From the NCBI RefSeq assembly GCF_029633865.1, contig NC_079219.1:56106682-56170681 (forward strand): a DNA stretch of 64,000 nucleotides. Reading direction: 5' to 3'. The DNA is from Lampris incognitus (lineage: Eukaryota > Chordata > Actinopteri > Lampriformes > Lampridae). This document shows positions 8,284 through 57,787 of the stretch, piece by piece. The translations under genes and the position numbers were made by a program. The notes below the pieces were generated by a model. That model was not told where the DNA came from and made no database searches. It saw only the letters and a list, made by a program, of their open reading frames with translations. Positions within the stretch are counted from its first letter, which is position 1. Every line of letters starts with the position of its first letter.

Positions 8284-10776
8284 CCGAGCCGCGTAGAGGT
8301 ACTAATACACAGAGCCGCGTACAGGTAAAAAATATACAGAGCCGCGTAGAGGTATTAATACACAGAGCTGTAGAGGTAATAATACACAGAGCCGCCTAGA
8401 GGTACTAATACACAGAGCCGCGTAGAGGTATTAATACACAGAGCCGCGTAGAGGTATTAATACACAGAGCTGTAGAGGTATTAATACACAGAGCCGCCTA
8501 GAGGTACTAATACACAGAGCCGCGTACAGGTACTAATATACAGAGCCGCGTAGAGGTATTAATACACAGAGCTGTAGAGGTAATAATACACAGAGCCGCC
8601 TAGAGGTACTAATACACAGAGCCGCGTAGAGGTATTAATACACAGAGCCGCGTAGAGGTATTAATACACAGAGCTGTAGAGGTATTAATACACAGAGACG
8701 CGTAGAGGTATTAATACACAGAGCCGCGTAGAGGTACTAATACACAGAGCCGCGTAGAGGTACTAATACACAGAGCCGCGTACAGGTACTAATACACAGA
8801 GCCGCCTACAGGTACTAATACACAGAGCCGCCTAGAGGTATTAATACACAGAGCCGCCTAGAGGTATTTATACACAGAGCCGCGTAGAGGTATTAATATA
8901 CAGAGCCGCCTAGAGGTATTTATACACAGAGCCGCGTAGAGGTACTAATACACAGAGCTGTAGAGGTATTTATACACAGAGCCGCCTAGAGGTATTAATA
9001 CACAGAGCTACATAGAGGTATTAATACACAGAGCCGCGTAGGGGTATTTATACACAGAGCCGCGTAGAGGTGTTAATACACAGAGCCGCCTAGAGGTACT
9101 AATAAACAGAGCTGTAGAGGTACTAATACACAGAGCCGCGTACAGGTACTAATACACAGAGCTGTAGAGGTAATAATACACAGAGCCGCCTAGAGGTACT
9201 AATACACAGAGCCGCGTAGAGGTATTAATACACAGAGCCGCGTAGAGGTATTAATACACAGAGCCGCGTAGAGGTATTAATACACAGAGCTGTAGAGGTA
9301 TTAATACACAGAGACGCGTAGAGGTATTAATACACAGAGCCGCGTAGAGGTACTAATACACAGAGCCGCGTAGAGGTACTAATACACAGAGCCGCGTACA
9401 GGTACTAATACACAGAGCCGCCTACAGGTACTAATACACAGAGCCGCCTAGAGGTACTAATACACAGAGCCGCGTACAGGTACTAATACACAGAGCCGCC
9501 TAGAGGTACTAATACACATAGCCGCCTAGAGGTATTAATACACAGACCCGCCTAGAGGTATTTATACACAGAGCTGCGTAGAGGTATTAATATACAGAGC
9601 CGCCTAGAGGTATTTATACACAGAGCCGCGTAGAGGTACTAATACACAGAGCTGTAGAGGTATTTATACACAGAGCCGCCTAGAGGTATTAATACACAGA
9701 GCTACATAGAGGTATTAATACACAGAGCCGCGTAGAGGTATTTATACACAGAGCCGCGTAGAGGTATTAATACACAGAGCCGCCTAGAGGTACTAATACA
9801 CAGAGCTGTAGAGGTACTAATACACAGAGCCGCGTACAGGTACTAATACACAGAGCCGCGTAGAGGTACTAACACACAGAGCTGTAGAGGTACTAATACA
9901 CAGAGCCGCCTAGAGGTACTAATACACAGAGCCGCCTAGAGGTACTAATACACAGAGCCGCGTAGAGGTACTAATACACAGAGCCACGTACAGGTACTAA
10001 TACACAGCTGTAGAGGTACTAATACACAGAGCCGCCTAGAGGTACTAATACACAGAGCTGTAGAGGTACTAATACACAGAGCCGCGTAGAGGTACTAATA
10101 CACAGAGCCGCCTTGAGGTACTAATACACAGAGCCGCCTAGAGGTACTAATACACAGAGCTGCGTAGAGGTATTTATACACAGAGCCGCCTAGAGGTATT
10201 AATACACAGAGCTGCGTAGAGGTATTTCTACACAGAGCTGCGTAGAGGTATTTCTACACAGAGCTGTGTAGAGGTATTAATACACAGAGCTGTGTAGAGG
10301 TACTAATACACAGAGCTGCGTAGAGGTATTTCTACACAGAGCTGTGTAGAGGTATTAATACACAGAGCTGCGTAGAGGTACTAATACACAGAGCTGCGTA
10401 GAGGTATTTATACACAGAGCTGTAGAGGTATTAATACACAGAGCCGCGTAGAGGTATTTATACACAGAGGTATTGATACACAGCTGTAGAGGTATTAATA
10501 CACAGAGGTATTAATACACAGCGCTGCATAGAGGTATTAATACACAGAGCTGCGTAGAGGTATTAATACACAGAGCTGCGTAGAGGTACTAATACACAGA
10601 GCCGCGTAGAGGTATTAATACACAGAGCCGCGTAGAGGTATTAATACACAGAGCTGCGTAGAGGTATTTATACACAGAGGTATTAATACACAGAGCTGCT
10701 TAGAGGTACTAATACACAGAGCCGCGTAGAGGTATTAATACACAGAGCTGAGTAGAGGTACTAATACACAGAGCTG
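8284..10776 (+). repeat. 2.5 kb minisatellite, 26-bp unit, in crot copy 1 intron 1
   Basis: The unit is about CACAGAGCCGCGTAGAGGTA plus CTAATA, repeated roughly 95 times. Variants include a 24-bp form lacking two bases (GAGCTGTAGAGG), GCCGCC for GCCGCG, and CTAATA/TTAATA/TTTATA ends. Rare variants recur at long spacing (AGAGACG at about 8694 and 9310; GCTACAT at about 9007 and 9691), which shows that a segment of about 0.6-0.7 kb was itself duplicated inside the array. Block 2 has no such array at the equivalent point. Confidence 0.95.
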
Positions 10777-11058
10777 CTGCCGTCTCGCCGCCTCTTTGCT
10801 GCAGTGTGTTGGGAGTTTGGGTTTGTATGACATTGCAAGTGTTGTTTGGTCTACAACACGGTAGCTGACGGTCTCGTTTGTGAGGCGCCGTGTCCTTTTT
10901 TCCTCTGTCGGATGTTTTGAATATCGTCAAGAGAGCAGACTGAATAGTCTTATTGCTGTAAACAATATCCTGATTGTTCTCAACTCCTCGGAAACAGGTG
11001 GATTTACCATAAAGCTTTTTTCTCTTTTTTTATTCTACTCCATCTTAAAGGCGAAGAA

Positions 11059-14000
11059 ATGGCTAACAAAGTACCCGAGCGGACCTTTCAGTACCAAGAC
11101 AGCCTGCCACCGCTTCCTGTGCCATCACTGGAGGGCACTCTTTCCAAGTACCTGGATGCAGGTAGGGCAGCGGTCCATCTGGGCGAGGGCACCTGGCTGC
11201 AGCCTGCAGAATGGGATGGGGTTCAACGTCGATTTGGGGGAGGTTTGAACGTCTATTTCACTGGTTTTGACTTGGGTTTGGGTGGGGGTTAACCGGTTAG
11301 GGATGATGGGATAAAACGTTTGACAGTGAAACCCGCCCCATTCTGCAGGCCGTAGCCTGGTACTCGTCCATCTGAGAGCCTGCATCACTGAGATGACGTT
11401 GTTGGCTGAATTTTATGTCAGCAAAAAATACTCATTATGGGATGAGCCTTAATGGTTTAAGGAATCCATCACAGCCTTTACCACTCTCATTCCTTTTGGG
11501 TGGATATGCTAATTCTGATTTGGCAAAATTTCAAGATGGTGTTTGCAAGATGTGTAATACTGTAAGACAGTTCACTATTTCATGTTTGATATTTGTATAA
11601 AGCACTTTTATTAGTTGTGGACTTAACAAATTTAGCTAAATGCAGTGTTTCTCAAGTTGGAAATATACTTGTGATGGTGTTGTGCCTCACTAGCGGTTGC
11701 AGGGTGGTCATGACCCATTGATCCATCTTTCAAATTGTATAGCTCAAAGAGAAAATGGGTACCAATGCAAATGGCAGCACAGAACTGCTGTGGCTATGCA
11801 ACAGCATGCTGTCTTTCATAGAATTCGAAGTGACTACGAAGGTGAGCAGGAAGTGCTTGCAGAAACTCCACAAAATTGTGCAGCTCTCTCTCTGTCTCTG
11901 TGAACAAGGGACGGGATGGACAGAGTGAAGGGAGATAGTTGATATACCTTGGTGGCCGAAAATATAGAAAGTCTATGTGTGGGGAAAACACTCAAATGGA
12001 AGAATAGGAGTGTCTGAGATCTATTAACTGATCTCTTTTCAACGCATTTGCTGGATGTTTATGCCACTTTTTGAGAAATTGGGTCTGTGGAGCAAAGACA
12101 GAAAAGTTTAGATTGCCCAACTTTCTGTTTTAGCAAACCCACTTCTTCCCACAACATACTGTTAATGTATGCCATGTCTGTCTTCAGTGCGTCCCTTTGC
12201 ATCGGAGGAGGAATACCAGACTACAGTGGATATCGTGAGGAAATTTAAAGAGGGCGTAGGCCGAGACCTGCACCAGAGGCTACTGCAGAGAGCCAGAAAG
12301 AAGAGGAACTGGGTGCGTATCAAACTGTACATGTCGTATTGTGCTCTGACAGGTGTTTTTTCTCAGTCACGGACCTTCATATTGGCTGTTTGGTGTCTCC
12401 TCACCAGCTGGAGGATTGGTGGCTTGACAAAGCTTATCTGGAGGTCCGTATCCCCTCTCAGCTGAATGTGAACTTTGGGGGCCCGGCACCCTACTTGGAG
12501 CACTGCTGGCCCCCTACAGAAGGAACACAACTGGAGAGGGCCAGTGTTGGCACATGGCACACGCTGCAATACTGGAACCTGATTCGCACGTAAGACACAC
12601 ACACACACACATCACACACACAGCCTTCAGACATGAATGCAACAGGGAATGTCATAATTTTCCAGTTTTTCTCTCTTCATGTGTCAGGGAGAGGCTGACC
12701 CCTCAGACAGCTGGAAATATTGCATTTGATATGGAGCAGTACAGAATGTTGTTTAATACCTGCAAAGTACCCGGAGTTAACAAGGATGTTCTTGTCAACT
12801 ACTTTAAGACTGGTAAGATACTGTGTATCTCTCATTGTATATACATATATATCTCATAAAGCACATTCTCACACACATCTCATGTCTCTCATGCTTGCGT
12901 GTCACTATTGTATGTGTGGGTTTCATCACAGAGAGCGAGGGTCCCTGCCCCTCCCATGTGGTGGTGATGTGCCGTGGACGAATCTTCTCATTTGACGCAG
13001 TTTGTGATGGACAGATTCTGTCTCCGCCGGAGCTGCTCAGGTGTTCACGATATGCTCACCGTGCACATCACGATAAGTACTACCAACATCCGAGTACTTG
13101 TCAGGTGTACAAAGCCCCAAGTATACTTGAGTCATGTATGTTTGTGCGTGCATCTTCTATAGGCAGCTGAGGTTTGTGAGGGAGCGTTGTGAGGGAGAGC
13201 CAGAGGGAGATGGAGTCGCTGCTCTCACCACAGAGGAGAGAACCTGTTGGGCTAAGGTGAGGAGGTCAAAGAGATTAAATACACTGGTGTGTGTTTCTGA
13301 GAGCAATGGATTCAGTGGAAGACGACAAAATAGAATTTACATTTTATAACTAGACCACATCTGAAATACTGTCATGTTCTTCTCTACCCACCTTCTCTCC
13401 AGGCCAGGGAGCATCTGATAAGTATCGATTCAGCCAACAAGACGATCCTGGAGACCATCCAGAGCAGTCTGTTCGTCATATCTCTGGATGATGCCAAACC
13501 GTACTCCACCCCAGAGAACTACACCGCGGTACGACCCAAGCATATTTCATTCATCTTTAAATATGTAGATCAGTGTTTATCATGGAACCTCAGCTTTGGC
13601 AGTTTTGTAATAAGATAAGATACATTATATAAATTTAGGCATGGTGGCGCAGTGGTTAGCGCCGTTGCCACACAACAAGAAGGTCCTGGGTTCAAGCCCC
13701 ACGGTAGTCCAACCTTGGAGGTTATTGCGGGTCGTCCTCTGTGTGGAGTTTCCATGTTCTCCCCGTGTCTGCGTGGGTTTCCTCCGGGTGCTCCAGTTTC
13801 CTCCCACAGTCCAAAGACCTGTAGGTCAGGTGAATTAGCCGTACTAAATTGTCCCTAGGTGTGATTGTGTGTGTGTGTGGGCCCTGTGATGGACTGGCGG
13901 CCTGTCCAGGGTGTCTCCCTGCCTGCTGCTCAATGACTGCTGGGATAGGCTCCAGCATTCCCGCGACCCTGAGTAGGATAAGAGGTTTGGATAATGGATG

Positions 14001-17000
14001 GATGGAAGATAAATATAAGATGAGATAAGATATCCTTTATTGTCCCTGCGGGGAAACTTGACTTGGGCAATAGTGCTACACACAGCTGCAGTCAAATCAA
14101 ATTAAATACAATACATGGCCAACAAAACAGTACAGTGGTACACCAAAGACACAATAAAAAATTACATACAACAAAATAAGAAATATATTTAAAATATTGC
14201 ACATGCTTTGTGAGATAGAAGATAAAAATACATAAACAAATGAAGTAATTTCTGTCTGACCGTGTGCCCTTGACCTAGATGACCCTGGAGGCCCTTACAG
14301 GCGACCCTGCCACCCGCTGGGGGGACAAATCCTATAATTCAATCTCTTTTGCAGATGGCACTTTTGGATCAAACTGTGATGTGAGTTTGGGGCTTCTCTG
14401 CCCCCCCACACGCACACACACACACGGACACACACAGGGTGCAGGTTTTATCTACATTGTCTTTCTGTTGTTGACTTGGAGTTACAGAGGTTCCCTCATC
14501 CATTTCAAACAAACAACATAAGCTGTGTGACCTGAAGGCCCTCAGACAAGTCATACTGACCTAGATATTAGGTTTGGAAAGGATGGCCACAATATGATGG
14601 GGCCATTTTTCAACAAAATATTGCTTCACTTACTTTCTTTTTTGAATATAAGATATCTGTATTATGGTATCACCTGAAATCTTGAAAACATCAGCGGAGG
14701 AAAGATTACCAATACGCCGAAACCAGTGAACTGACTTAACAGTATATTGTTGCCTTGATGTTCAGTGTTACCTGCATGAGTTATAACAGTGATAAAGTAC
14801 ATGGTTATGTTGTAGATTATAGTATAGAGTAATTACAGTGCTAATAACCTTGTACATTGTTGCAGCATGCACCATATGATGCCATGGTGATGGTTTCTCT
14901 GTGTTATTATGTGGACCAGCAAATCAAAGCTACAGATGGCCAATGGAAGGTAAACATCCCAGCTAACTTGTTTGCTGCAATTGGATTATGATCTCTTCTG
15001 GTTTATTTTTGTTTATTCACAGCTCATTTCTGTGTTAATAGGGCCCAGACACCGTCAGACCTATGCCTCTGCCCAGGGAACTTGTGTTCACTGTGGACGA
15101 TAAGGTCAGGAGTGACATCAGCCATGCCAGAAACCAGTACCTGGAGACGGTTGGTCAACAACAACAAACGCCACACTGTTAAGCTCTTACGACTCACTAA
15201 TTACATCCGGCAAGTGTAACTGTCATGGGAAACAGCTGTTTTATCGTCTTCTCTCTCTCCCTCTCCCTCCCTGGTTTTACAGACACAGAACCTGCAGGCG
15301 GCGTGCCACGCCTTCACTTCCTTTGGAAAAGCAGACGTCAAACAGAGGAAACTGCATCCTGACACTTTTGTTCAACTGGCGATGCAGCTAGCCTACTACA
15401 GAATGCACGGCAGGTACGGCAGCTTAGATATATCACCGTGCCCTATTACGTTTCACCTCAGCACGTCATTTTGATGTTTACATGAGGCGACGTGTTCTCT
15501 TCCATCCCCTCTCAGGCCAGGTAGCTGTTACGAGACAGCGACGACTCGCAGGTTTTACCACGGCAGGACCGAGACCATGCGACCCTGCACCCCGGAGGCT
15601 GTCAGCTGGTGTCAGACAATGCTTGACCATACATGTAGTGTGAGTGTGTATGTGAGAGAGAGAGTTAAACCTGATTACTGCGTAAATCCGTCATAGCAAA
15701 ACCACATAACAGAAAGTAGTAAAGACGGCAGTGGAACGGAAATGTGAATTAGTTTAGTTTCCATCAAATCTGTTAGAGTGAATAAAACTCTGAACATAGT
15801 TTTTCTTGTCTTACATCACATCTATACTTAAACACCCACACCAAAGATGGACCGGTTAAGAAGAAAACTGTGATCATGTGTGTTTCCATCACCCGTTCAG
15901 CACATTAACTCTGAACTGACAAAAGCTAAAATCACCTGTAAGTTAGTGTAAAAACGTTGTGTTTTTGTTTTTGTTTTTTAAATCCCCCGTCCCTTTTTTT
16001 TCCTCCCCAATTGTATCCAGCCAATTACCCCCACTCTTCCGCGCTGTCCCGGTCGCTGCTCCACCCCCTCTGCCAATCCGGGGAGGGCTGCAGACTACCA
16101 CATGCCTCCTCCGATACATGTGGAGTCACCAGACGCTTCTTTTCACCTGACAGTGTGGAGTTTCACCAGGGGGATGTAGCACCTGGGGGGATCACACTAT
16201 TCCCTCCAGTTCCCCCTCCCCCCGAACAGGCGCCCCAACCGACCAGAGGAGGCGCTAGTGCAGCGACCAGGACACATACCCACATCCGGGTTCCCACCCG
16301 CGGACACGGCCAATTGTGTCTGTAGGGACGCCCGACCAAGCCGGAGGTAACACGGGGATTCGAACTGGCATAGACCGCTACGCTACCCAGACACCCTCAA
16401 TATATTTTTTAATTTGGTGTTTCCGTTTAGCCTTTTCCTATTCGAAATGTAAAACTTTAGTAAACATGCTGGATGGAAACCCCACCAGTGGCTTAACGTT
16501 AGCGTTACTCTTCTGTCAGGCTGACGCCAGGAGGAAAGCCATGCTGCTGGCCTTCGACAAGCACAACAAACTGATGGCCGAAGCCCAGAATGGAAAAGGT
16601 CTGTTTGTTTTACTTTCTGTGTAGTCGATGTGTTTGTATCGCTTCTTTCCCACCTGTTTAGATACGTGAAGGCTTCTCCTCCTCAAGGGGCTGCAGCTCA
16701 CTCGAAAAAAATCCTTTTATTTGAAATTCTGGTGTTACAAAGCTTACATACCGTTTGGAAAAAAACATGTATGGGGAGTAGTGGTGGGACCTGCATGCGC
16801 TTGCTTCTGATACTGATTCATTTTGCATGTTGTCGCGTGATATCCTACCCAGGTTTTGACAGACATCTCCTCGGCCTATATCTTATCGCCCAGGAGGAGG
16901 GACTTCCTACACCAGATCTCTTCATGGACCCTCTCTATGCTAAGAGGTACAGTAACAGCCAGTCAGTCATGTCATGAGTCAGTGACTGATAGTTGCAGAT

Positions 17001-18250
17001 GCAGAAAGATCTGAGTTTGGTCGTGCTGCCAAACACAAAATACAAAGCGTAGATTATGAATTATGAATTATTATTCATTATGAACACAAGCTGGAAGCTT
17101 TTGGGGGAAGTAAACAAATAAAACTTGAACAAACAACATCATGAACTGTTTATAAAACAAAGTCACATAGTGTCTGTCGATGTTAAGGTTTGTTTTTCTC
17201 TTTTATTTTATAGAGAAAAAAAACCCATTCAAATTACAACATACATATATTAAACCAATAGGGAAATAAAATATTTCACAAACCCATCAAAGTCTACAGA
17301 ATCAAATAGGATAAGAATTAAAAATTAAAACACAGGTAGACAAGACAGAACACAGTGAGGGAACCTGTAGGCCTCTGCATGGCTTCCAGCCTACACCCCC
17401 CCCCCATCAAATAAAAACTACACATATACCCTACACACACTACACTATTTAACCAAACTCCAACATCACCCTCCCTCCTTCCCCAATGACAATAAAAGTG
17501 CTCCCCTCCACAAATCCACTACTAGACTCTTATCTAACACAACTATACAACATATTAACATCTCTCTCCATTATACTTTTAAAAATATTCCACACCTCAG
17601 CTCTCCTCTTTTCATAACGGGCTATATTCCTCCTTGGCTTGACAGCAAACCTTCCGTGGCTCAAAACACAATTTAATAAATTAACATTACATCCCTTCAC
17701 TTTGCCAGCCACCCCAAACAACCATAATTCTCTCCGTTCCACTGTCAACAAACCACCTCTCCAGCATCTACTTATCAATCCCTTCATCTTTGTTCAGGTG
17801 GTGATTTCAGTATTGAAACTAGAAGTGCAGCAGGGGTCTTTTAGTCTGTGGTGGCTGCCTGTGTGTGACTATGAGTCGTGTCTGTCTGCAGCGGCGGGGG
17901 TGGTAACTTCGTGTTGTCATCCAGTCTGGTGGGCTACACAACCGTTCTGGGGGCTGTGGTTCCCATGGTGCACCATGGCTACGGTTTCTTCTACCGCATC
18001 AGAGACGACAGGTAGGCAGAGAAGACCGAGACATGTTCAGACGCGCCGGGCCCGGGTGCTACTGGTGTACCCAGATCCTTACTGAAGTGGTACTTGAAAA
18101 CAACCAACCTGCGTTTTTCTTCCCTCCAGGATTGTAGCTTGCATCACAGCATGGAAATCTGACCCGGAGACCGACGCAGAGGCACTTTTCCACAACCTGC
18201 GGACCTCCTTCCATGATATGCTCCAGCTGGCAACCACCTCTCAGCTGTAA
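11059..18250 (+). CDS. crot: Carnitine O-octanoyltransferase, tandem copy 1 (16 coding exons)
   Basis: Predicted peroxisomal enzyme moving medium-chain acyl groups between CoA and carnitine. Coding exons: 11059-11161, 12188-12312, 12408-12589, 12688-12812, 12932-13040, 13163-13256, 13403-13528, 14279-14380, 14866-14949, 15042-15149, 15283-15413, 15516-15639, 16520-16598, 16853-16946, 17892-18011, 18130-18250. They sum to 1827 bases, giving 608 aa with the frame open throughout; human CROT has 612. The start is the ATG right after an acceptor, opening MANKVP then ERTFQYQDS. Family marks seen: PLPVPSLE near residue 18, RWGDKSYN followed by NCD-HAPYDAM with catalytic His323 (His327 in mammals), the GRTET motif, GGGGNFVLS, and Gly549, equivalent to mammalian Gly553 that opens the acyl pocket. 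The C-terminus is SQL, a PTS1 variant. Oddities: four codons are missing after residue 6 relative to copy 2 and human, and Pro453 stands where Ser is usual (MRP instead of MRS). Exon 10 has a weak donor (GTTGGT). A poly(A) signal lies at 19573. Confidence 0.95.
11188..11370. mobile_element. Small TIR element just after crot exon 1 (block 1)
   Basis: Imperfect inverted arms face each other: CCTGGCTGCAGCCTGCAGAA on the left, and on the right a complement ending GCCGTAGCCTGG. The same element occupies the same place in block 2 (24535-24722), so it was present before the duplication. The superfamily is not assigned. Confidence 0.5.
12596..12622 (+). repeat. CA repeat directly after crot exon 3 donor
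   Basis: An (AC)n run interrupted by one ATC starts about five bases inside intron 3 in both crot copies (26027-26055 in copy 2). CA repeats near donors are known hnRNP L binding sites; an effect here is inference. Confidence 0.7.
13632..14010 (+). mobile_element. DANA-like tRNA-derived SINE in crot copy 1 intron 7
   Basis: The head GTGGCGCAGTGGTTAGCG and the GGTTCAAGCCCC box B are tRNA-like. The body has the common fish sequence GTGGAGTTTCCATGTTCTCC, and the tail ends in GGATGGATGGA. Block 2 has an empty site here (about 27060), so the insertion came after the duplication. A short AAGATA duplication flanks it. Confidence 0.85.
14020..14230 (-). repeat. LINE 3'-tail-like repeat in crot intron 7, both copies
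   Basis: The motif ATATCCTTTATTGTCCCTGC followed by GGGGAAACTTG resembles the 3' end of fish Rex1/L2-type LINEs. It is present in both blocks (27070-27290 in block 2), so it is older than the duplication. Confidence 0.5.
15960..16400 (-). mobile_element. tRNA-derived SINE (abundant local family) in crot copy 1 intron 12
   Basis: This is the minus-strand copy of a SINE of about 420 bp found about ten times in this window. Read on the minus strand, its head is tRNA-like (GGTTCGAATCCCCGTGTTAC type) and its 3' end is GAGAAAAA-rich. Inner landmarks are CAATTGTGTCTG and GCGCTAGTGCAGCGACC. Block 2 has only a 47-base head fragment near its equivalent position. Confidence 0.85.
17189..17799 (-). mobile_element. 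Tx1/L1-like LINE 3' fragment in crot copy 1 intron 14
   Basis: This segment is absent from block 2, where the flanks join directly. An imperfect duplication TGTT(A/C)AGG borders it. The - strand frame 17530-17787 encodes a short piece resembling the extreme C-terminus of Tx1-type reverse transcriptases. It is a 5'-truncated copy that arrived after the duplication. Confidence 0.6.
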
Positions 18251-19578
18251 CTTCCTGCAACCACTCAACATCAGAAAAAGGAGTGGAATATAACCCTGCT
18301 GTAGCATCTCATGGTTGGACACAGTCACAGTCCATGAAAAAGCCAAGTTAACGACTGACAGCTAGCGACAGTCATGTTTGTGTTCTGCACAGATCAATGC
18401 AAAGGCAAAGAATCAATGCAGCCGAGGATAAAATCCTGCAGCTCTGTCCTCCTTTTTTCACTTTTATTTTCATTTTTTCATCACCAGTGGTGCCTTTTCT
18501 GTGGTGATTCTCGTAAGAGATTTTGCAGGTGCTGGATTTTAACAGTATTAAACGGTATTAAACCCGGCTTTCTGACATTTGGTGAAGTCAGAGGAGTCGG
18601 CCGGGTTTTGAAGAAACCGTCGCGGGTCACAGCTCGTGGCTTGTTGAGAAGAATTTAAACACCACTTTTATCTTGGGACATTCCAAATTAAGTCATAAGC
18701 AGTAGCAACCTTGATAACAGTCAAATCAGAATAAATCATTAATATTTTTTTTTAGCTTCTGGATTGAGGGTCCCAACACAAACCGTGTGGCTTTAAAGTT
18801 GCTGCTCAACTTTTAAACTCAACTAAAGACGGATTTAAATGTTATAAAATATATAAAAGATTTGATTTTTTTTTTCATGCAAGCATCCCTTCAATGATCC
18901 ATTTATTCCCGCTTTTTACATTCAGACCGTAACGATTTTATGCTCCCGAACAAAGACAACCCCTGTCATTTGCATTCGTCTTCTTAATGAAAATAGTCAA
19001 AGCTTCGTAAAAAAATGTTGCCAAAAGAATACTTGATTGCTGCAATGGCTTGTTCAAAACAAATCACTTTTAGTAAGTTATTTGGATGTTGCACAAAAAT
19101 TACTTGAATCGTTTTGGGTCTGTTCGCTTAATTCGTGAGAACCTTCAGGTTTGTAGACCGCCCGTCTTTAGACTCCTGAAAGACTTTCCGCATGAAGTCT
19201 CAGGAACCGGAGTCCACCGTCCATCAGCGTCTTTCCTAACAAGCTAACACACTTCTGACTGCTGAACGTGGCATTACACTTCATCGTCTTCCGTCCAACA
19301 TTCTGAACTTAGGATGTGCCGGATGTCTTCGAACATTTACACAGATCAGTTAACCCTAATGATGTAAACCACAGAGGGCTGATGAATTGTAGCACGTCTT
19401 TTGTAAAGTAAAAAAAACAAAACCGAATAGATCTGCTATTCTTTCACTATTGTAGAAAGAGATGATTTAATGTTTGTTTGAATCTCAAAGCTGTACATTT
19501 TTTTTAATTGTATAAGACTGCTCTTTGTTACTCAAATATGTATTTAGCAGAACAAGTATGAATAGTTAGCCCAATAAA
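18251..19578 (+). other. Inferred crot copy 1 3' UTR
   Basis: Sequence from the stop codon to a canonical AATAAA. The first 230 bases are nearly identical to block 2, and the last part is similar but more diverged. It contains no coding exon. Confidence 0.6.
19573..19578 (+). terminator. Poly(A) signal AATAAA of crot copy 1
   Basis: A canonical hexamer in CCCAATAAAGT, matched at the paralogous position 32236 in block 2 (CTCAATAAAAT). The conserved position in both copies supports use. Confidence 0.65.
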
Positions 19579-19859
19579 GTACACACAAAAAAAAACTTCG
19601 GACATTCTTTGCTTGGTTTTTTTTCCTTATCAAGTCTAAATTGGCATTAAGAAGTTAAGTAAAATGAGTCGCTTGATTTAAAAATGAGTCAGTTGATATG
19701 CAGTTGAACGTAGTACTTTGTGTTCATGTAAAAACATTCTTATGCAAAGATTAGTCATTAGTAATTTGTAGAAACAACTTGATTCTTTGTACTTTCGTGT
19801 TTGTATGATACAAAAACGCGCACTTGCACGGTGCAGTACTTATTTAGACCATCAGAACA

Positions 19860-21590
19860 TTGTCAGGTTTTGTGGCCTGCTGCCAACAAAGAGTCAGAGT
19901 GGTGCCAGTTCAACGAAGATGTGGATGCAGCCCTTGAAGCAACAGCCAAGGGCTGTGCAGACCAGAGGCTTCAGACAATGAGCACCTCAATAATGAGCAT
20001 CACTTCGGAGAGGTTCAGCATCAAGGAACAATGGGCCACCAAAACTACTGCAAATCCAAACCGATGGGAAGTTAAGATCGCCCAGCTTAGACACTCAAGA
20101 GCCGGTACAGGAAGGCAAGTGAGGAAAAGAAGGCAGCCTTGCCAGAACTTCACAGCATGGTAAGGGAAAGGCTAGTCATCCTTTGGTGCGCTGAGGGGCA
20201 AGGAGAAGGCCCGCAAGCGCAGTGCCTTTACTGCAAATCCATTTGGATGTTCAAAGAAGCTACTGGGACAGAAATGCAGCGGTCCAGTCATGCCCCGAGG
20301 AAGAGATCAACTGCCACGTTAGAAACAGTGACAGCATGAGGGAGCGAGACCTGGGCCACTGTGCAGCCCTGATATCCCTACCCGAACCCAGCACCCTGTT
20401 CAACATCAATGAACCCACACTGACAAGAGATCAAGGAGGACATCAAGTTGACCAGAACATCTTAAGCCCCAGGCCCGAATGGAGTGCCGTACACGGTCTT
20501 CAAAAGTTGCCCCAGGCTTCTGGAATGCCTCTGGAAGATCTACAAGGGTGATCTGGAGGAGGGGAAAGGTGCCGCAGCGGTGGAGATACGCAGAAGGCAC
20601 GTGGATTCCCAAGGAGGAGAACGCCAGCAACATCGAGCAATTTAGGACGATCTCGCTGCTCAGGGTGGAACGTGAGCTCTTCAAGATCGTTGCCAAGTGC
20701 TTCATGGCATTTCCCCTTAAGAACTCCTACATAGACATCTCGGTGCAGAAGGGAGGAGTTCCTGGTGTCCCAGGATGCATAGGGTACGCAGGTGTGTTAA
20801 CCCAACGGATCAGAGACGCACAAGAAAGCAGGGGGAGACCTGGCAGTGCTGTGGCTGGACCTTGCTAATGCCTACAGACCGATCCCACACAAGCTGGTAG
20901 ATTTGGCCCTGATCAGACCACCGTGTCCCAGAGAAGATCCAAAACCTCATCCTCAACTATTACAACTTTAGCCTGAGGGTGTCCTCTGGGACCTTGACTT
21001 CAGTGTGGCATCGGTTAAAAAAAGGGTATCATTAGTGACTGCACAATTTTTGTGCTGGCCATGAATATGCTTGTGGAGTGCAGAGGTCCCCAATCCAAAT
21101 CTGGCACCCGATAACCTCCGATCAGCGCGTTCATGGATGACCTAACGGTAACAACTACATCAGTGCCCGGATGCAGGTGGCTCCTTCAAGGACTTACTCA
21201 ATTTCCCCTCGGGGATAAATAATGCGTTCTGATCTGAACAGCTCATTGCATGGGCAAGAATGAGCTTCAAGCCCATAAAGGTCTCTGGTCCTCAGGAAAG
21301 GAGGAGTAACCGACCAGTTCAGCTCCTCTTTGGGAGGCACCCAAATTCCATCTGTGACTGAAAAGCCAGTCAAGAGCCTGTGTAGGATATTCACCAGCAA
21401 TCTGAAGGACACAGTGGCGCACCAGGCAACCAGTGATGACCTCCTCAACACTCGGCTCTCCACAGTGGACCAGTCCGGGCTTCCTGGAAAATACAAGGCC
21501 TGGATTGCATAAATCAACATGGAATTCTGCCTCGACTCCTCTGCCCACTGCTAATCTACGAAGTCCCAATCGCCATCGTGTAGTGATGTG
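19860..21590 (+). mobile_element. Reverse-transcriptase relic at the duplication junction
   Basis: Broken frames over 19801-20163, 20222-20551, 20479-20868 and 21330-21512 give pieces of a non-LTR-type reverse transcriptase: KVPQRWRYAEG, EQFRTISLL, IDISVQKGGVPGVPG, a FMDDLTV catalytic box near 21132, and SVTEKPVKSL. Each frame is interrupted. I recall similar proteins in fish genomes but cannot assign a clade. It separates the two crot blocks. Confidence 0.65.
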
Positions 21591-21740
21591 GAAATAGTAA
21601 GATATTATACATTGCATTACATTGTACAAAAAATGGAAGTGTGACAGTATACGTTTCACCAACAACAGCAGAACAAGCTGTGATGTGCTATACATCCCTA
21701 ATCCTTGGAATTTCACAAGATAATTGCTTTGGTAATGTTC

Positions 21741-21810
21741 CTGCCTGCATCCAGGTACTTGGAAAGGCTGCCCTCCAGTGATGGGTCGGGGAGTGGTGGG
21801 AGGTCCACGC
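21741..21810 (-). pseudogene. crot: Inverted crot exon 1 fragment
   Basis: Read on the minus strand, this matches the second half of crot coding exon 1. It has CCATCACTGGAGGGCAG, then CCTTTCCAAGTACCTGGATG, then CAGG, corresponding to residues PSLEG(S/T)LSKYLDA. The upstream part (CCACCACTCCCCGAC) is diverged, and the donor dinucleotide is GC instead of GT. Only about 70 bases are preserved. It lies just left of block 2, in the opposite orientation to both intact genes. Confidence 0.75.
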
Positions 21811-22258
21811 TGACAAGAGACTGATACTATAGCAGCCATGTCTTTACCTTTAAGTCGAGAGCAGAAGGGAAACGAGGTCATCCCAACTCCGTCTTTTGTA
21901 TCACTGGCATCAGCATTTAACACGGCATGGCACGGTTTGCAGGCCGGCTATTAATATCTGGCTGTGCAACTGCTGCCGCTCCATTTTCTCCTCAAAAACG
22001 TGCAGGCAGCACTCCGGTGTTAGTCAAACTCACGGTTTCATATTCAAACAGTTAAAATCATAGAAAAAAAACACCTCTTTGTTTATGCAAAACTAAAGTG
22101 TCTCATGTATAGCAGCAGTTATGACGCTTGCTCCTTTGTGTCGATGTACACTGAATATATAGCATTTGAGGAGGTGTACACCTCCTCAGGGCTGTAGTCC
22201 ATAAGTACTCTGACGCTAAGAGCAGCATGGGGGCTATGAGAGACTCGTCACGTTAGGT

Positions 22259-22504
22259 CAGTGTTTCCCAACCCAGTCCTCAAGGACCCCCTATCCTGCA
22301 GATTTCCTTTGCAACCCTGAATAGGCGCCTGTTTGTAGTTATTCAACCAATCAGCAATGAATTATATCAGACGTTGCACACCTTGCATAATTAAGTGCTG
22401 CGAGATGATTGGTCGAGTAAGCACAAGCGGGGCTACCTATGCAGGGTTACAATGAAAATCTGCAGGATAGGGGGGGTCCTTGAGGACTGGGTTGGGAAAC
22501 GCTG
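22259..22504. mobile_element. 246-bp hAT MITE in crot copy 2 promoter region
   Basis: Terminal inverted repeats CAGTGTTTCCCAACCCAGTC and, on the opposite strand, CAGCGTTTCCCAACCCAGTC. An 8-bp target duplication flanks it (CGTTAGGT and CATTAGGT, one mismatch). Block 1 has the empty site (GCGTTGGGTTGATTC), so the element inserted after the duplication. It ends about 35 bases upstream of the NRF1-like site. Confidence 0.9.
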
Positions 22505-22668
22505 CATTAGGTTGATTCAGGACGGCTAATAACTCAGTCATGCGCAGTCGCGACTTCCGGGTTTGGCAGCTGAACGCACCGGGCAGGGTGACTGGCCCGT
22601 GCAGGACGGGAGCGTTTGTGCAGGATTCGCCCACGTCGTCGTTCCTCCGTGATGCGGTTCTTCTCCGG
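22505..22668 (+). promoter_or_regulatory. Putative crot copy 2 promoter and 5' noncoding exon
   Basis: Paralogous to 7710-7925. The NRF1-like CATGCGCAGT (22539-22548) and ETS-like ACTTCCGG (22553-22560) are conserved. The sequence after them diverges strongly from block 1, and a donor (CCGG then GTGAGT) closes the exon at 22668. The next exon starts at 24384. Confidence 0.55.
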
Positions 22669-23107
22669 GTGAGTCGCTGGATTTACCTTGTGTGGTAAAA
22701 CGCGGGTTTAAATGTTAAAACCTAGATCTGAGCAAAGTTCGATGCCGTTGCTGATGACGTAGGCGCGTGTTCAAAACAAAACAACAGGTGGGCTTTCAGA
22801 AAGAGTTTGGCTCAGTTACACTGAAACGGAAACTCCCCCCGCGCGGGGCAGCCGCGTCACTCACAAGTCAATAAGAACCGGTTCCGATGAGGTGTTCGGT
22901 TCTATAGGCCGGCCCATAAAGTCAGTTTACCTCACTGTTGTGTCCAGCAAAACTCGGACCACCACGTTGAATCAAACTGTGTTTATTGCTGCCACAGTAA
23001 CCGTCACATACGCGTACAGTATAGCATCAACCACGTCTTGCGTTACTGCCGTAAACCGACTGCCGTAAACCGGCTGTGGTAAAACTTAAAGCTGCAGTGC
23101 CCTAGTC

Positions 23108-23879
23108 CAGTGTTTCTCAACCGGGGGTCCGCGGACCCCTAGTGGTCCGTGGTGTAATTGCAAGGGGTGCGTGAAAATAACATATCTTTAAAAAAAAAGA
23201 TCCTATGACATTTATAGAAATAGGATTATTTTACTCAAATGTGACTGAGACCTTTATCTACCTAAACTATAAAGGGTAACAGGACTTTTTTCTCTAATTA
23301 CATCTGTTTCACAAGTGTAATTTATTGTATTTTAATAAGAGATCTCGCTCCCGTTTGCATCGTTAAAAGTTACTGCATAAAAATGCTGTTGTTACATATA
23401 GCTGAAAGTTACTGAATACATATTCTGTTTTGTTACACATATCTGAAAGTTACTGAATACATATTCTGTTTAGTTACATATATCTGAAAGTTACTGCATA
23501 CATATTCTGTTTAGTTACATATATCTAAAAGTTACTGCATAAGAATTCTGTTTAGTTACATATATCTGAAAGTTACTGAATACATATTCTGTTTTGTTAC
23601 ATATATCTGAAAGTTACTGGATACATATTCTGTTTTGTTACATATATCTAAAAGTTACTGCATAAGAATCCTGTTTTGTTAACTATATCTAAGTTACAAC
23701 TGAAAGCTCTTATTTTTGCCCCAAAGAGTGAATAAATGCTATAATGCAATTTAAAATGCAGTTTCTACTGTTTCTATCAAATTGCAACCCCCCTCCCCCG
23801 AGATCAGGTGGAGGGGTCCTCAGGGTAGATCAAAAATACGCAGGGGGTCCAGGACCCCCAAAAAGGTTGAGAACCACTG
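23108..23879 (+). mobile_element. hAT MITE with internal 41-bp minisatellite (copy 2), crot copy 2 intron 1
   Basis: Complete element with CAGTGTTTCTCAACC at the left and GGTTGAGAACCACTG at the right. An imperfect 8-bp duplication is visible (CCCTAGTC and TCCTAGAC). It has about eight 41-bp units at 23369-23685. It is an independent insertion from the one at 6957, which lies upstream of exon 1 rather than in intron 1. Confidence 0.9.
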
Positions 23880-24391
23880 TCCTAGACTACAGTCACACTG
23901 TTGTGACTTATACACAACACTCACAACCGTACAAACGACAAGAACAGCTTGTACATGCAGACGATTACTGACTTCGTACAAAATGTGTTTTTGGCCAAGA
24001 AGAGTCCCCTGCCCCTCTGTTTCAGCAGCTAAATACAAAACCAAAACCAAACCAAACCAAAACCAAACCAAACCAAGCAGTATTTGTGGTTTCTTGAGAT
24101 CACGTCACTTCCGCCTCTTTGTTGCAGTGTGTTGGGGGTGAGTTTATATTACATTAAAAGTGTTTTTTGGTCTACAACACGGTAAGCTAAAGGTCTTGCT
24201 TGTGAGGTGTTGTTTCCTTATTTTCCCTGTTGAGTCTTTTGAGCATATTCAGAGAGCAGACTGAATAGTTTCATTACTATAAACAATACTCTGTTGATGA
24301 CAGGTCGTACACAATTGTTCTCAGCTTCTTGGAAATGGATGGATTTACCGCAAAGCTTTGTTATTATTCTACCCCACCTTAAGGCAAAGAA

Positions 24392-27300
24392 ATGGCTAAT
24401 CAAGTATCCGAGTCCCTGTCCGAGCGGACCTTTCGGTACCAAGACAGCCTGCCGCCACTTCCTGTACCATCTCTGGAGGGCACTCTTTCCAAGTACCTGG
24501 ATGCAGGTAGGGCAGCGGTCCATCTGAGCATGTACACCTGGCTGCAGCCTGCAGAATCCCAGCCACTATTTGATTTGATTGGTTTAACTGTTGAATTTGG
24601 GCGAGGTTGAACGTTGATTTCATTGGTTTGGACTTGGGTTTGGGCGGGGTTAGACAGTTAGGGATGGGTGGGGTAAAATGTTTGATGTTGAAACCCGCCC
24701 CATTCTGCACGCTGCAGCCTGGTACTACTACTCCATCCGAGAGCCTGCATCACTGAAATGACGTTGTTGGCTGAATTTTGAATCAGCAAAAATACTCATT
24801 ATGTGAACCTTAAAGGTTTTAAGGAATCCATCACAGCCGTTACCACTCACTGCTGTCATGCCTTTTAGGTGAACATGCTAATTCTGATTTGGCGAAATTT
24901 CAAGATGGTGTTTGTAAGATGTGTAATGCTGTAAGACGGTTCACTGTTTCATGTTAGTACAAAGCACTTTTGTTAGTAGTGGACTTCACAAATGAACTAA
25001 GTCCAGTGTTTCCCACAAGTTGGAAATATACTTGTGATGGTGTTGTGCCTCACTAGCGGTTGCAGGGTGGTCATGACCCATCGATCCATCTTTCAAATTG
25101 TATAGCTCAAAGAGAAAATGGGTACCAATGCAAATGGCAGCGCAGAACTGCTGTGGCTATGCAACAGCATGCTGTCTTTCATAGAATTCAAAGTGACTAC
25201 CAAGGTGAGCAGGAAGTGCTTGCAGAAACTCCACAAAATTGTGCAGCTCTCTCTCTGTCTCGCTTTGTTTGCAGAGCGTGTATGATTGAGGATAACTAAC
25301 CTCTGCTCACACTTGCTTCGCATGCTACGGCAAGTGAACAGGGACGGGATGGACAGAGTGAAGGGAGATAGTTGATATACCTTGGTGGCCGAAAATATAG
25401 AAAGTCTATGTGTGGGGAAAACACTCAAATGGAAGAATAGGAGTGTCTGAGATCTATTAACTGATCTCTTTTCAATGCATTTGCTGGATGTTTATGCCAC
25501 TTTTTGAGAAATTGGGTCTGTGGAGCAAAGACAGAAAAGTTTAGATTGCCCAACTTTCTGTTTTAGCAAACCACTTCTTCCCACAACATACTGTTAATGT
25601 ATGCCATGTCTGTCTTCAGTGCGTCCCTTTGCATCGGAGGAGGAATACCAGACTACAGTGGATATTGTGAGGAAATTTAAAGAGGGCGTAGGCCGAGACC
25701 TGCACCAGAGGCTACTGCAGAGAGCCAGAAAGAAGAGGAACTGGGTGCGTATCAAACTGTACATGTCATATTGTCCTCTGACAGGTGTTTTTTCTCAGTC
25801 ACGGACCTTCATATTGGCTGTTTGGTGTCTCCTCACCAGCTGGAGGAATGGTGGCTTGACAAAGCTTATCTGGAGGTCCGTATCCCCTCTCAGCTGAATG
25901 CGAACTTTGGGGGCCCGTCGCCTTACTTGGAGCACTGCTGGTCCCCTACAGAAGGAACACAACTGGAGAGGGCCAGTGTTGGCACATGGCACACGCTGCA
26001 ATACTGGAACCTGATACGCACGTAAGACACACACACACACACATCACACACACAGCCTTCAGACATGAATGCAACAGGGAATGTCATAATTTTCCAGTTT
26101 TTCTCTCTTCATGTGTCAGGGAGAGGCTGACCCCTCAGACAGCTGGAAATATTGCATTTGATATGGAGCAGTACAGAATGTTGTTTAATACCTGCAAAGT
26201 ACCCGGAGTTAACAAGGATGTTCTTGTCAACTGCTTTAAGACTGGTAAGATACTGTGTATCTCTCATTGTGTATACATACATATGTCCTTATCTCACTCT
26301 CATAAAGCACATTCTCACACACAGCTCATGTCTCTCATGCTTGTGTGTCACTGTTGTATGTTTCATCACAGAGAGCGAGGGTCCCTGCCCCTCCCATGTG
26401 GTGGTGATGTGCCATGGCCGAATCTTCACATTTGACGCAGTTTGTGATGGACAGATTCTGTCTCCGCCGGAGCTGCTCAGGTGTTCACGATATGCTCACC
26501 GTGCACATCACGATACGTACTACCAACATCTGAGTACTTGTCAGGTGTACAAAGCCCCAAGTATACTTGAGTCATGTATGTTTGTGCGTGCATCTTCTAT
26601 AGGCAGCTGAGGTTTGTGAGGGAGCGTTGTGAGGGAGAGCCAGAGGGAGATGGAGTCGCTGCTCTCACCACAGAGGAGAGAACCTGTTGGGCTAAGGTGA
26701 GGAGGTCAAAGAGATTAAATACACTGGTGTGTGTTTCTGAGAGCAATGGATTCAGTGGAAGACGACAAAATAGCATTTACATTTTATAACTAGACCACAT
26801 CTGAAATACTGTCATGTCTTCTCTACCCACCTTCTCTCCAGGCCAGGGAGCATCTGATAAGTATCGATTCAGCCAACAAGACGATCCTGGAGACCATCCA
26901 GAGCAGTCTGTTCGTCATATCTCTGGATGATGCCAAACCGTACTCCACCCCAGAGAACTACACCGCGGTACGACCCAAGCATATTTCATTCATCTTTAAA
27001 TATGTAGATCAGTGTTTATCATGGAACCTCAGCTTTGGCAGTTTTGTAATAAGATAAGATAAATATAAGATGAGAGAAGATATGCTTTATTGTCCCTGCG
27101 GGGAAACTTGACTTGGGCAATAGTGCCACACACAGCTGCAGTCAAATCAAATTAAATACAATACATGGCCAACAAAACAGTACAGTGGTACACCAAAGAC
27201 ACAATAACAATTACATACAACAAAATAAGGAAGATATGTAAAATATTACACATGCTTTGTGAGATAAAAGATAAAAATACATAAACGAATTAAATAATTT

Positions 27301-28710
27301 CTGTCTGACCGTGTCCCCTTGACCCAGATGACCCTGGAGGCCCTTACAGGCGACCCTGCCATCCGCTGGGGGGACAAATCCTATAATTTAATCTCTTTCG
27401 CAGATGGCACTTTTGGATCAAACTGTGATGTGAGTTTGGGGCTTCTCTGCCCCCCCCACCCACACACACACAGACACACACAGGGTGCAGGTTTTATCTA
27501 CATTGTCTTTCTGTTATTGACTTGGTGGTTACAGAGGTTCCCTCATCCATTTCAAACAACCAAGTGATTCATAAGCTGTGTGACCTGAAGGCCCTCACAC
27601 AGGACATACTGACCTAGATATTAGGTTTGGAAAGGATGGCCACAAAGTTCATCAGTACTCTTTTATCAACAAAATATTACTTGACTTATTTTCTTTGTTT
27701 AATGTAAGATATCTGTATCATGGTATCACCTGAAATCTTGAAAACATCAGCGGAGGAAAGATTACCAGTTTTTTGGGGGGGGATTCCCCCCCCTTTGCCC
27801 CCCAATTGTATCCGACCAATCACCCCACTCTTCCGAGCCGTCCCGGTCTCTGCTCCACCCCCTCTGCCGATCCGGGGAGGGCTGCAGACTACCACATGCC
27901 TCCTCTGATACATGTGGAGTTGCCAGCTGCTTTTTTTCACCTAACAGTGAGGAATTTCACCAGGGGGATGTCGCGCGTGGGAGGATCACGCTATTCCCCC
28001 CAGTCCCCCCCCCCCTGAACAGGCGCCCTGACTGACCAAAGGAGGCGCTAGTGCAGTAAACAGGACACATATCCACATCCGGCTTCCTACCCACAGACAC
28101 GGCCAATTGTGTCTGTAGGGACGCCCAACCAAGCCAGAGGTAACACGGGGATTCAAAATGGGGATCCCCGTGTTGGTAGGCAACGGAATAGACCGTCATG
28201 CCACCCGGACGCCCCCCCAGTGAACTGACTTAACAGTATATTGTTGCCTTGATGTTCAGTGCATGTTCTCACTGCATGAGTTATAACAGTGATAAAGTAC
28301 ATGGTTATGTTGTAGATTATAGTATAGAGTAATTACAGTGCTAATAACCTTGTACATTGTTGCAGCATGCACCATATGATGGCATGGTGATGGTGTCTCT
28401 GTGTTATTATGTGGACCAGCAAATCAAAGCTACAGATGGCCAATGGAAGGTAAACATCCCAGCTAACATGTTTGCTGCAATTGGATTATGATCTCTTCTG
28501 GTTTATTCACAGCTCATTTCTGTGTTAATAGGGCCCAGACACCATCAGACCTATGCCTCTGCCCAGGGAACTTGTGTTCACTGTGGACGATAAGGTCAAG
28601 AGTGACATCAGCCATGCCAGAAACCAGTACCTGGAGACGGTTGGTCAACAACAACAAACACCACACTGTTAAGCTCCTATGACTCACTAATTACATCCGG
28701 CAAGTGTAAT

Positions 28711-28760
<50 letters not shown>

Positions 28761-31057
28761 TCTTTGATTGTAAGACTCTCTGTCTGTGGTTTTACAGACA
28801 CAGAACCTGCAGGTGGCGTGCTACGCCTTCACTTCCTTTGGAAAAGCAGCCGTCAAACAAAGGAAGCTGCATCCTGACACTTTTGTTCAACTGGCGATGC
28901 AGCTAGCCTACTACAGAATGCACGGCAGGTACGGTAGCTTAGATATATCACCGTGCCCTATTACGTTTCACCTCAGCACGTCATTCTGATGTTTAAATGA
29001 GGTGATGTGTTCTCTTCCATCCCCTCTCAGGCCAGGTAGCTGTTACGAGACAGCGACGACTCGCGGGTTTTACCACGGCAGGACTGAGACCATGCGATCC
29101 TGCACCCTGGAGGCTGTCAGCTGGTGTCGGACAATGCTTGACCATACATGTAGTGTGAGTGTGTATGTGAGATGGCGTTAAACCTGATTACTGTATATCG
29201 TCATGGCAAAACCACACAACGGCTGGCGTCCGAGTAGCGTGGCGGTCTGTTCCGTTGCCTACCACACTCAAAGATGGACCGGTTAAGACGAAACATTTTA
29301 TCATGTGCATTTCCATCACCTGTTCAGCACATTAACTCTGAATTGCCAAAAGCTATGATCACCTCAACTTAGTGTAAAAACTGTTTGAAACATTTGTTCT
29401 TTTGATTTGGTGTTTCCATCTAGCCTTTTCCCATTCGAAATAACAAATTTTATAAAACATGCTCGATGGAAGCCCCACCAGTGGCTTAACGTTAGTGTTA
29501 CTCTTCTGTCAGGCTGACGCCAGGAGGAAAGCCATGCTGCTGGCCTCCAACAAGCACAACAAACTGATGGCCGAAGCCCAGAATGGAAAAGGTCTGTTTG
29601 TTTTACTTTCTGTATATCTGATGTGTTTGTATCGCCTCTGGGCGGCACAGTGGCGCAGTGGTTAGCGTGGTTGCCTCACAGCAAGAAGGTCCTGGGTTCA
29701 AGCCCCGCGGTAGTCCAACCTTGGGGGTCATCCTGGGTCGTCCTCTGTGTGGAGTTTGAATGTTCTCCCTGTGTCTACGTGGGTTTCCTCCGGGTGCTCC
29801 GGTTTCCTCCCACAGTCCAACATGTAGGTCAGGTGAATCGGCCTTACTAAATTGTCCCTAAGTGTGAATGTGTGTGTGTGGGCCTTGTGATGGACTGGCG
29901 GCCTGTCCAGGGTGTCTCCCCACCTGCCGCCCAGTGACTGCTGGGATAGGCTCCAGCATCCCCCCCGACCCTGAGAGCAGGATAAGCGGTTTGGATAATG
30001 GATGGATGTATCACCTCTTTCCCACTTGTTTAAATTGGTGAAGGCTTCTCCTCCTCAAGGGGCTGCAGCTCACTTAGAAAATTAATTTTGTTTCAAATTC
30101 TGGTGTTACAAAGCTTACATGCCGTTTAGAAAAAACGTGTATGGGGAGTAGTGGTGGGACCTGCCTGCGCTTGCTTCTGATGCTGATTCATTTTGCATGT
30201 TGTCCCGTGATATCCTACCCAGGTTTTGACAGACATCTCCTCGGCCTATATCTTATCGCCCAGGAGGAGGGACTTCCTACACCAGGTCTCTTCATGGACC
30301 CTCTCTATGCTAAGAGGTACAGTAACAGCCATTAAACAAGCTAAATCATAGCCGGCACAGGATTGTTGATCATATGACCAGTTAATGACGTGACCTTTGG
30401 TATCCAGTCAGTCATGTCACGAGTCAGTGACTGATAGTTGCAGATGCAGAAAGATCTGAGTTTGGTTGTGCTGCCAAACACAAAGCGTAGACATTATGAA
30501 TATTAGCTGGAAGGTTTTGGGGGAAGAAAACAAGTAAAACCTGAATAAGTAACATAATGAACAATTGATAAAAATTAGAAGTGACATGGTGTCTGTCGAT
30601 CTTTAGGTGGTGATTTCAGTATTGAAACTAGAAGTGCAGCAGGGGTCTTTTAGTCTGTGGTGGCTGCCTGTGTGTGACTATGAGTCGTGTCTGTGCAGCG
30701 GCGGGGGTGGTAACTTCGTGTTGTCATCCAGTCTGGCGGGCTACACAACCGTCCTGGGGGCTGTGGTTCCCATGGTGCACCATGGCTACAGTTTCTTCTA
30801 CTGCATCAGAGACGACAGGTAGGCAGAGAAGACCGAAGACGTTCAGACGCGCCGGGCCCGGGCGCTACTGGTGTACCCAGATCCTTTATTGAAGTGGTAC
30901 TTGAAAACAACCAACCTGCGTTTCTCTTCCCTCCAGGATTGTAGCTTGCATCACAGCATGGAAATCTGACCCGGAGACCGACGCAGAGGCACTTTTCCAC
31001 AACCTGCGGACCTCCTTCCATGATATGCTCCAGCTGGCAACCACCTCTCAGCTGTAA
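24392..31057 (+). CDS. crot: Carnitine O-octanoyltransferase, tandem copy 2 (16 coding exons)
   Basis: Second complete peroxisomal carnitine octanoyltransferase. Coding exons: 24392-24506, 25620-25744, 25840-26021, 26120-26244, 26372-26480, 26603-26696, 26842-26967, 27328-27429, 28366-28449, 28532-28639, 28798-28928, 29031-29154, 29513-29591, 30223-30316, 30699-30818, 30937-31057. They sum to 1839 bases, giving 612 aa, the same length as human CROT, with an open frame. The N-terminus MANQVSESLS then ERTF keeps the ancestral spacing. Catalytic His327 lies in HAPYDGM (Ala to Gly in a position the family signature allows). Gly553, the acyl-pocket residue, is kept, and the C-terminus SQL is a PTS1 variant. 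Oddities: Ser564 in GYS where GYG is expected, Cys568, Ala546, and Gly for Arg/His before FYHGRTET. These suggest copy 2 is less constrained at its C-terminal half. The gene is tail to tail with the ABCB gene. Confidence 0.95.
27768..28215 (-). mobile_element. tRNA-derived SINE (abundant local family) in crot copy 2 intron 8
   Basis: Same family as 15960-16400. Block 1 reads straight through this point (about 14712), so the SINE postdates the duplication. It is full length, with poly-C/poly-G expansions at both ends. Confidence 0.85.
28712..28760 (+). repeat. (TG)n microsatellite in crot copy 2 intron 10
   Basis: A TG run of about 45 bases, 40 bases before the exon 11 acceptor. Block 1 has a CT-rich tract here instead. 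Confidence 0.85.
29221..29267 (+). mobile_element. SINE head fragment in crot copy 2 intron 12
   Basis: GGCGTCCGAGTAGCGTGGCG and the following CCGTTGCCTACCA match the 5' tRNA-like head of the abundant local SINE. The body is missing. Confidence 0.65.
29639..30008 (+). mobile_element. DANA-like SINE in crot copy 2 intron 13
   Basis: Same family as 13632-14010, with the head GGCGGCACAGTGGCGCAG and a GGATGGATG tail. Block 1 lacks it at the equivalent site (about 16640). Confidence 0.85.
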
Positions 31058-31435
31058 CTTCCTGCAACCACTCAACATCAGAAAAAAGAGTGGAATATAA
31101 CCCTGCTGTAGCATCTCATGGTTGGACACAGTCAGTCCATGAAAAAGCCAAGTTAACGACTGACAGCTAGCGACCGTCATGTTTGTGTTCTGCACAGATC
31201 AGTGCAAAGGCAAAGAATCAATGCAGCCGAGGATAAAATCCTGCAGCTCTGTCCTTCTTTTTTTTTTCCATCACCAGTGGTGCCTTTTCTGTGGTGATTC
31301 TCAGAAGAGATTTTGCAGGCGCTGGATTTTAATCTTGACAGTATTAAATCCGGCTTTAACAGAGCTTTTGTTCATGTCTTACATTTGGTGAAGTCAGAGG
31401 AGTCTGCTGGCTTTTTTGAAGAAAGAGTCGCGGGT

Positions 31436-32165: not shown

Positions 32166-32235
32166 GTAGATATAAGACTGCTCTTTGTTACTCAAAAACA
32201 ATATATTTAGTGGAAAAAGTACAAGTGGTTAGCTC

Positions 32236-32241
32236 AATAAA
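32236..32241 (+). terminator. Poly(A) signal AATAAA of crot copy 2
   Basis: The canonical hexamer at the position paralogous to 19573, downstream of the retroelement mosaic, which would therefore be transcribed within the 3' UTR. Confidence 0.6.
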
Positions 32242-32550
32242 ATGGGAAAAAAGTCAGAACTCCTTCAGTTGTTTTTTTTTTCTTTCCTCTATCAAGTCTA
32301 AATCAGAATCAGAATACTTTATTCATCCCCGAGGGGAAATTGGGTTCAACAATTCCACTAAATTGGCATGAAGAAGATAAGTGAGTCGGTGGATAGTCGG
32401 TTGACCATAATACTTTAATAAGCATCCATGTAAAAACTAATTCTCACGCTAAGATTAGTAATTCAGAGCATTTGTAGAAACAGAACTTGATTCTTTGTAC
32501 TTTCAAGAGCTTGTGTGATACAAAAATGTACACCTGCACGGCGCGGCACT

Positions 32551-41147: not shown

Positions 41148-41204
<57 letters not shown>

Positions 41205-47536: not shown

Positions 47537-47602
<66 letters not shown>

Positions 47603-48005: not shown

Positions 48006-48087
<82 letters not shown>

Positions 48088-54427: not shown

Positions 54428-54467
<40 letters not shown>

Positions 54468-57737: not shown

Positions 57738-57787
<50 letters not shown>

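Follow-up and report, generated by a model that had tools for sequence, protein, structure and literature searches.

Two neighbouring genes for carnitine octanoyltransferase (crot), arranged head to tail and each with an intact reading frame, were found in a 64,000-nucleotide stretch of the genome of Lampris incognitus (NCBI RefSeq assembly GCF_029633865.1, contig NC_079219.1, positions 56,106,682 to 56,170,681 of the forward strand), referred to below as the window and numbered from its first nucleotide. The pair is a real tandem duplicate of the ordinary kind: two paralogues with the same orientation lie on a single sequence and share their flanks, the divergence between them is patchy, and their coding sequences differ by no frame-breaking indel. 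The features of the window are listed in Table 1.

The two crot genes

Gene models were built from two series of exon matches of human CROT to the window. The query, a human CROT sequence, aligned with mouse CROT (1XL7) across all 612 residues. Each model runs from an ATG to a stop codon at the limits given in Table 1. The first-pass annotation, which was made from the letters of the window, had described two complete 16-exon genes with unbroken frames of 608 and 612 residues, and the homology-built models are the same. A 1166-residue open frame suggested for copy 2 by a domain search was ruled out, the longest stop-free run in the block being 191 residues. The annotation had also described the splice sites as consensus except at exon 10. 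This holds in that all 15 introns of copy 1 and all 15 of copy 2 are GT–AG, in a splice model search that permitted only GT or (with a penalty) GC donors and imposed an AG acceptor; the exception needs rewording, because at exon 10 each copy has the donor ACG|GTTGGT, which is weak yet GT.

Both proteins match PF00755 (Carn_acyltransf) over profile positions 1–573/574, with 615.2 bits for copy 1 and 605.8 bits for copy 2 against a cut-off of 22.3 bits. Among solved carnitine/choline acyltransferases, mouse CROT scores highest (917 bits for copy 1, 906 for copy 2) and CRAT comes next (294.5 and 296.4 bits, respectively). The sequence DHAP at human positions 326–329 is kept in both copies, and includes the catalytic histidine of CROT (human His327). 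Both proteins end in SQL, and AATAAA or ATTAAA is found 3' of both genes, so that the catalytic histidine, the ending resembling a type 1 peroxisomal targeting signal (PTS1) and the poly(A) signals noted in the first pass are all present. Zebrafish Crot also ends in SQL, which the text of PMC8919083 terms a weak PTS1. Copy 1 lacks four residues near the N terminus that are present in copy 2 and in mammals. As regards coding sequence and splice sites, the description of both copies as apparently intact is correct.

Extent of the duplicated unit

The homology between the two units continues beyond the genes on both sides. Upstream, 6663–6816 matches 21849–21999 at 88%, and more collinear pieces follow, reaching 8230 in unit 1 and 22931 in unit 2. 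In the assembly, the sole other relative of 21849–22245 is the stretch at 6663, upstream of copy 1. Downstream, 19511–19641 and 19682–19841 match 32171–32303 and 32379–32551 at 74–76%; a genome search likewise pairs the downstream pieces, with 40 of 580 candidates scored and with part of the query being a scattered short repeat. The tandem duplication proposed from the first reading is thus borne out, and the duplicated unit exceeds the genes, including a promoter-like stretch and 3' flank. No earlier report of a tandem crot pair appeared in the literature searched, as judged by titles and the openings of abstracts, and the earlier suggestion that the pair may be new stands as far as that literature reaches and no further.

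The promoter-like stretches are marked by ATGCGCA and ACTTCCGG words at 7780–7806 and 22535–22561, which occur nowhere else on the window's plus strand. In vertebrate promoters, words of these types are characteristic of NRF1 and ETS sites. Global alignment of 7756–8290 with 22511–23110 gave a score of 229.5, and none of 100 shuffles scored above 39. Strong candidate donors are located at 7926 and 22669, at positions that are not aligned between the copies, and a noncoding 5' exon in each copy is a prediction. We dropped the idea that copy 1 had lost its promoter to the minisatellite of unit 1, because the promoter-like stretch, which lies upstream of the minisatellite, was found in both units. 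Further candidate donors near 10815, 10861, 24138 and 24182 are of doubtful meaning because the promoter-like stretch lies further upstream.

Divergence between the copies and its possible causes

Sites were counted in collinear BLAST pieces that were aligned one by one after manual trimming of overlaps; the insertions and the weak outer flanks do not enter the counts. The windowed values from a MAFFT alignment of the two blocks were dropped, as exon 13 was misplaced around insertions. Over 6138 aligned sites, noncoding differences amount to 258 of 4311 and the coding sequences differ by 2.4%. The noncoding differences number 94 in 732 sites (12.8%) to the left of 11653, 19 in 1354 (1.4%) between 11653 and 14158, and 145 in 2225 (6.5%) to the right, while the flanking pieces of the units differ by 12–28%. 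The score of the low-divergence block was reached in none of 2000 shuffles, and the same was true when the diverged 5' piece was left out. Divergence changes in a step inside intron 1, from 59 of 722 sites to 1 of 286 (p = 5.5e-8), and exon 1 differs at 5 of 27 silent sites, compared with 11 of 390 elsewhere (p = 0.002). The block therefore shows a local excess of similarity with sharp edges, noncoding sites included. It is best explained by gene conversion between neighbours, with which the noncoding patch, the step in intron 1 and the silent differences agree. The 380-bp repeat next to the block in copy 1 (13626–14005) must either have been inserted after the conversion or mark its edge.

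A single coding indel separates the copies, of 12 bp and in frame, and no frame-breaking indel occurs in 1827 coding sites. The noncoding rate (66 indels in 4311 sites) would predict 28 in the coding sequence, or 22 outside the low-divergence block, both of these being upper figures because more indels arise and are tolerated in introns than in coding sequence; if one copy had been unconstrained since the split, about half of the expected indels would still be predicted. The absence of frame-breaking indels therefore suggests that both reading frames have probably been kept by selection. The values of dN/dS (nonsynonymous over synonymous divergence) are 0.0202/0.0394 for the whole gene, 0.0120/0.0296 for exons 2–7 and 0.0247/0.0281 for exons 8–16. 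By comparison with human and mouse, 12 of the 28 amino-acid differences are changes in copy 2 and 5 are changes in copy 1, with 11 undecided.

We consider the following account likely as a whole. A tandem segmental duplication of approximately 10 kb would have copied one crot that lay beside an abcb gene, the promoter region and 3' flank being included. The flanks would then have diverged to roughly the 12–28% now seen, and the gene bodies would have been held closer by conversion between the neighbours, with the clearest tract running from within intron 1 (its right part) as far as intron 7. Both genes probably are expressed, give active peroxisomal carnitine octanoyltransferases and have been retained by selection on the reading frame, with the benefit perhaps being dose, or different times or tissues of expression.

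Several results weigh against parts of this account, and are considered here with the explanations that they favour. The evidence is drawn from sequence, and the block differing by 1.4% would also fit allelic difference or consensus mixing of near-identical copies, as would arise if two haplotypes of one crot had been assembled in a row, or if reads of the two copies had been mixed up. Such an artefact is very improbable, because the divergence of the flanks (12–28%) and of the 5' part (12.8%) is far beyond ordinary allelic difference. Moreover, each unit has its own repeat insertions and another repeat is inserted between the units, there is no N in the window, and the abcb gene has no second copy within it. 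A 1726-bp piece of copy 1, searched against the 537 contigs (1.48 Gb) of the assembly, found itself and copy 2 at 97%, and no third crot copy, the other matches reaching about 50 bp at most. Human CROT gave a list of 34 matches to the assembly. In this list, matches at CROT level, meaning more than 50% identity, fall at the crot locus, with three short or weak exceptions (on contigs C24, C9 and C22; 39–53 residues at 51–53%), which belong to loci that a general family search found as well. The low-divergence block might alternatively represent unusually constrained introns, or a later, second partial duplication. With two copies only, neither the direction nor the number of events can be inferred. 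However, the step in divergence falls within one intron and the order of the pieces is collinear on both sides, and we regard these alternatives to conversion as improbable. The silent sites of exons 8–16 differ less than the introns there (p = 0.026), a result for which conversion alone is insufficient as an explanation.

It is also conceivable, though unlikely, that one copy is failing, either because the protein of copy 2 is under relaxed constraint or because copy 1 is weakly transcribed owing to the minisatellite, which is present in unit 1 only and separates the promoter-like stretch from the first coding exon. In exons 8–16 dN is about equal to dS (18 of 742 nonsilent and 6 of 218 silent sites differ, p = 0.81), and purifying selection is not detected there by dN/dS; the whole-gene difference (28 of 1407 nonsilent against 16 of 417 silent, p = 0.044) comes from one among several tests, and the intron indel rate overstates the number of indels to be expected in coding sequence. 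Copy 2 scores lower than copy 1 by 9.4 bits against PF00755 and by 11 bits against mouse CROT. Its non-conservative changes include, in human numbering, Y179C, F487S and G564S, the last of which replaces the Gly of a GYG motif by Ser. On the other hand, neither copy has a frame-breaking indel or a lost splice dinucleotide, copy 2 scores slightly above copy 1 against the CRAT and CPT2 chains, and the 12:5 excess of changes in copy 2 is not significant (p = 0.14). Among 10 related genes of the genome, the position of Gly564 is Gly in seven and Ala in one, and was not found in two; the Ala in one relative weakens the proposal that Ser at this glycine kills copy 2. In view of the similar dN and dS in exons 8–16 and the excess of changes in copy 2, equal function of the copies cannot be claimed. 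A further and quite improbable reading is that both copies are selected, with the first half homogenised by recurrent conversion and exons 8–16, the catalytic and acyl-binding half, diverging to give peroxisomal enzymes with different chain-length preference. Our preferred account remains duplication followed by conversion, with both reading frames kept.

Surrounding sequence and comparison with known loci

Table 1. Features of the window, with their positions, strands and the basis of each assignment
Feature	Position	Strand	Basis or remark
Duplicated unit 1, bounded by the outermost homologous pieces (homology interrupted)	6663..19841	+	Collinear matches
Promoter-like stretch of copy 1 (ATGCGCA and ACTTCCGG words), candidate donor GCAG|GTGAGC	7780..7931	+	Function inferred
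26-bp minisatellite, ~93 units, unit 1 only	8286..10777	+	Separates promoter-like stretch from first coding exon
crot copy 1, coding exons 1–16, 608 aa	11059..18250	+	Homology-built gene model, PF00755
Low-divergence block of copy 1, read as gene-conversion tract	11653..13622	+	27 differences in 1960 aligned sites
Copy-1-only insertion, dispersed repeat	13626..14005	+	380 bp
Copy-1-only insertion, dispersed repeat	15956..16406	+	Window repeat match
603 bp in copy 1 only, insertion or deletion alike possible	17190..17792	+	Copy comparison
Dispersed repeat between units, 1.7 kb	19845..21583	+	77–83% like many genomic copies
Inverted 64-bp fragment of first coding exon and donor, at junction	21740..21803	-	86% to copy 1, 84% to copy 2
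Duplicated unit 2, bounded by the outermost homologous pieces	21849..32551	+	Collinear matches
Palindromic dispersed repeat, resembling a miniature inverted-repeat transposable element, ~260 bp, unit 2 only	22250..22512	.	90–96% like many scattered copies
Promoter-like stretch of copy 2, candidate donor CGG|GTGAGT	22535..22674	+	Function inferred
Dispersed repeat with 41-bp tandem units, unit 2	23103..23879	+	Window matches
crot copy 2, coding exons 1–16, 612 aa	24392..31057	+	Homology-built gene model, PF00755
Low-divergence block of copy 2	25016..27061	+	Counterpart of 11653..13622
Copy-2-only insertion, dispersed repeat	27768..28216	+	Window repeat match
Copy-2-only insertion, dispersed repeat	29640..30018	+	Window repeat match
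abcb1/abcb4-type gene exons	33286..62826	-	Tail to tail with crot pair; gene extends past region searched

The junction between the units consists largely of a dispersed repeat, in which an open frame resembles, by eye, a retrotransposon polymerase. The remaining 265 bp of the junction are unique apart from the inverted scrap of the first coding exon, which we guess could have come from a template switch during the duplication. There are five length differences of 379–603 bp inside the genes, four of which match dispersed repeats of the window. The palindromic repeat of unit 2, which adjoins the promoter-like stretch, has an empty site in unit 1, at approximately 7749–7757. The repeat with 41-bp units has one relative at a non-corresponding position of unit 1 (6952–7708) and another at 35266–35836, and the length of the 41-bp array varies among the three. 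At 34189–34313, TTAACCCCAACCC-like units form a short array that recalls degenerate telomere repeats. A search for TMEM243 as the upstream neighbour gave no convincing match.

If both genes are active, one step in the peroxisomal export of shortened fatty acids would be doubled, and the pair would provide a natural test of conversion against divergence in neighbouring enzyme genes. Studies of expression in this species must distinguish two transcripts that are near-identical over exons 2–7.

Both copies resemble mouse and human CROT in matching over their full length, with an identity to the human protein of approximately 62% (376/608 for copy 1 and 370/612 for copy 2), and in having the catalytic histidine, the SQL ending and a position next to abcb1/abcb4. 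The level of identity to human CROT, the ending shared with zebrafish Crot and the abcb neighbour are consistent with a bony fish. They differ in that the known CROT locus has one gene, whereas there are two genes here. According to the text of PMC3765700 and PMC3655950, crot of zebrafish, medaka, catfish and further species adjoins abcb4 or abcb1. The order of neighbours is thus the same as here, although crot is mentioned in that text as one gene. Tandem duplication with gene conversion is a common phenomenon, visible here in clear detail. The teleost tandem duplicates with conversion described in PMC1852091, PMC3464592 and PMC7408487 belong to gene families other than crot, and combine recent local duplication with conversion between neighbours, as in the pair described here.

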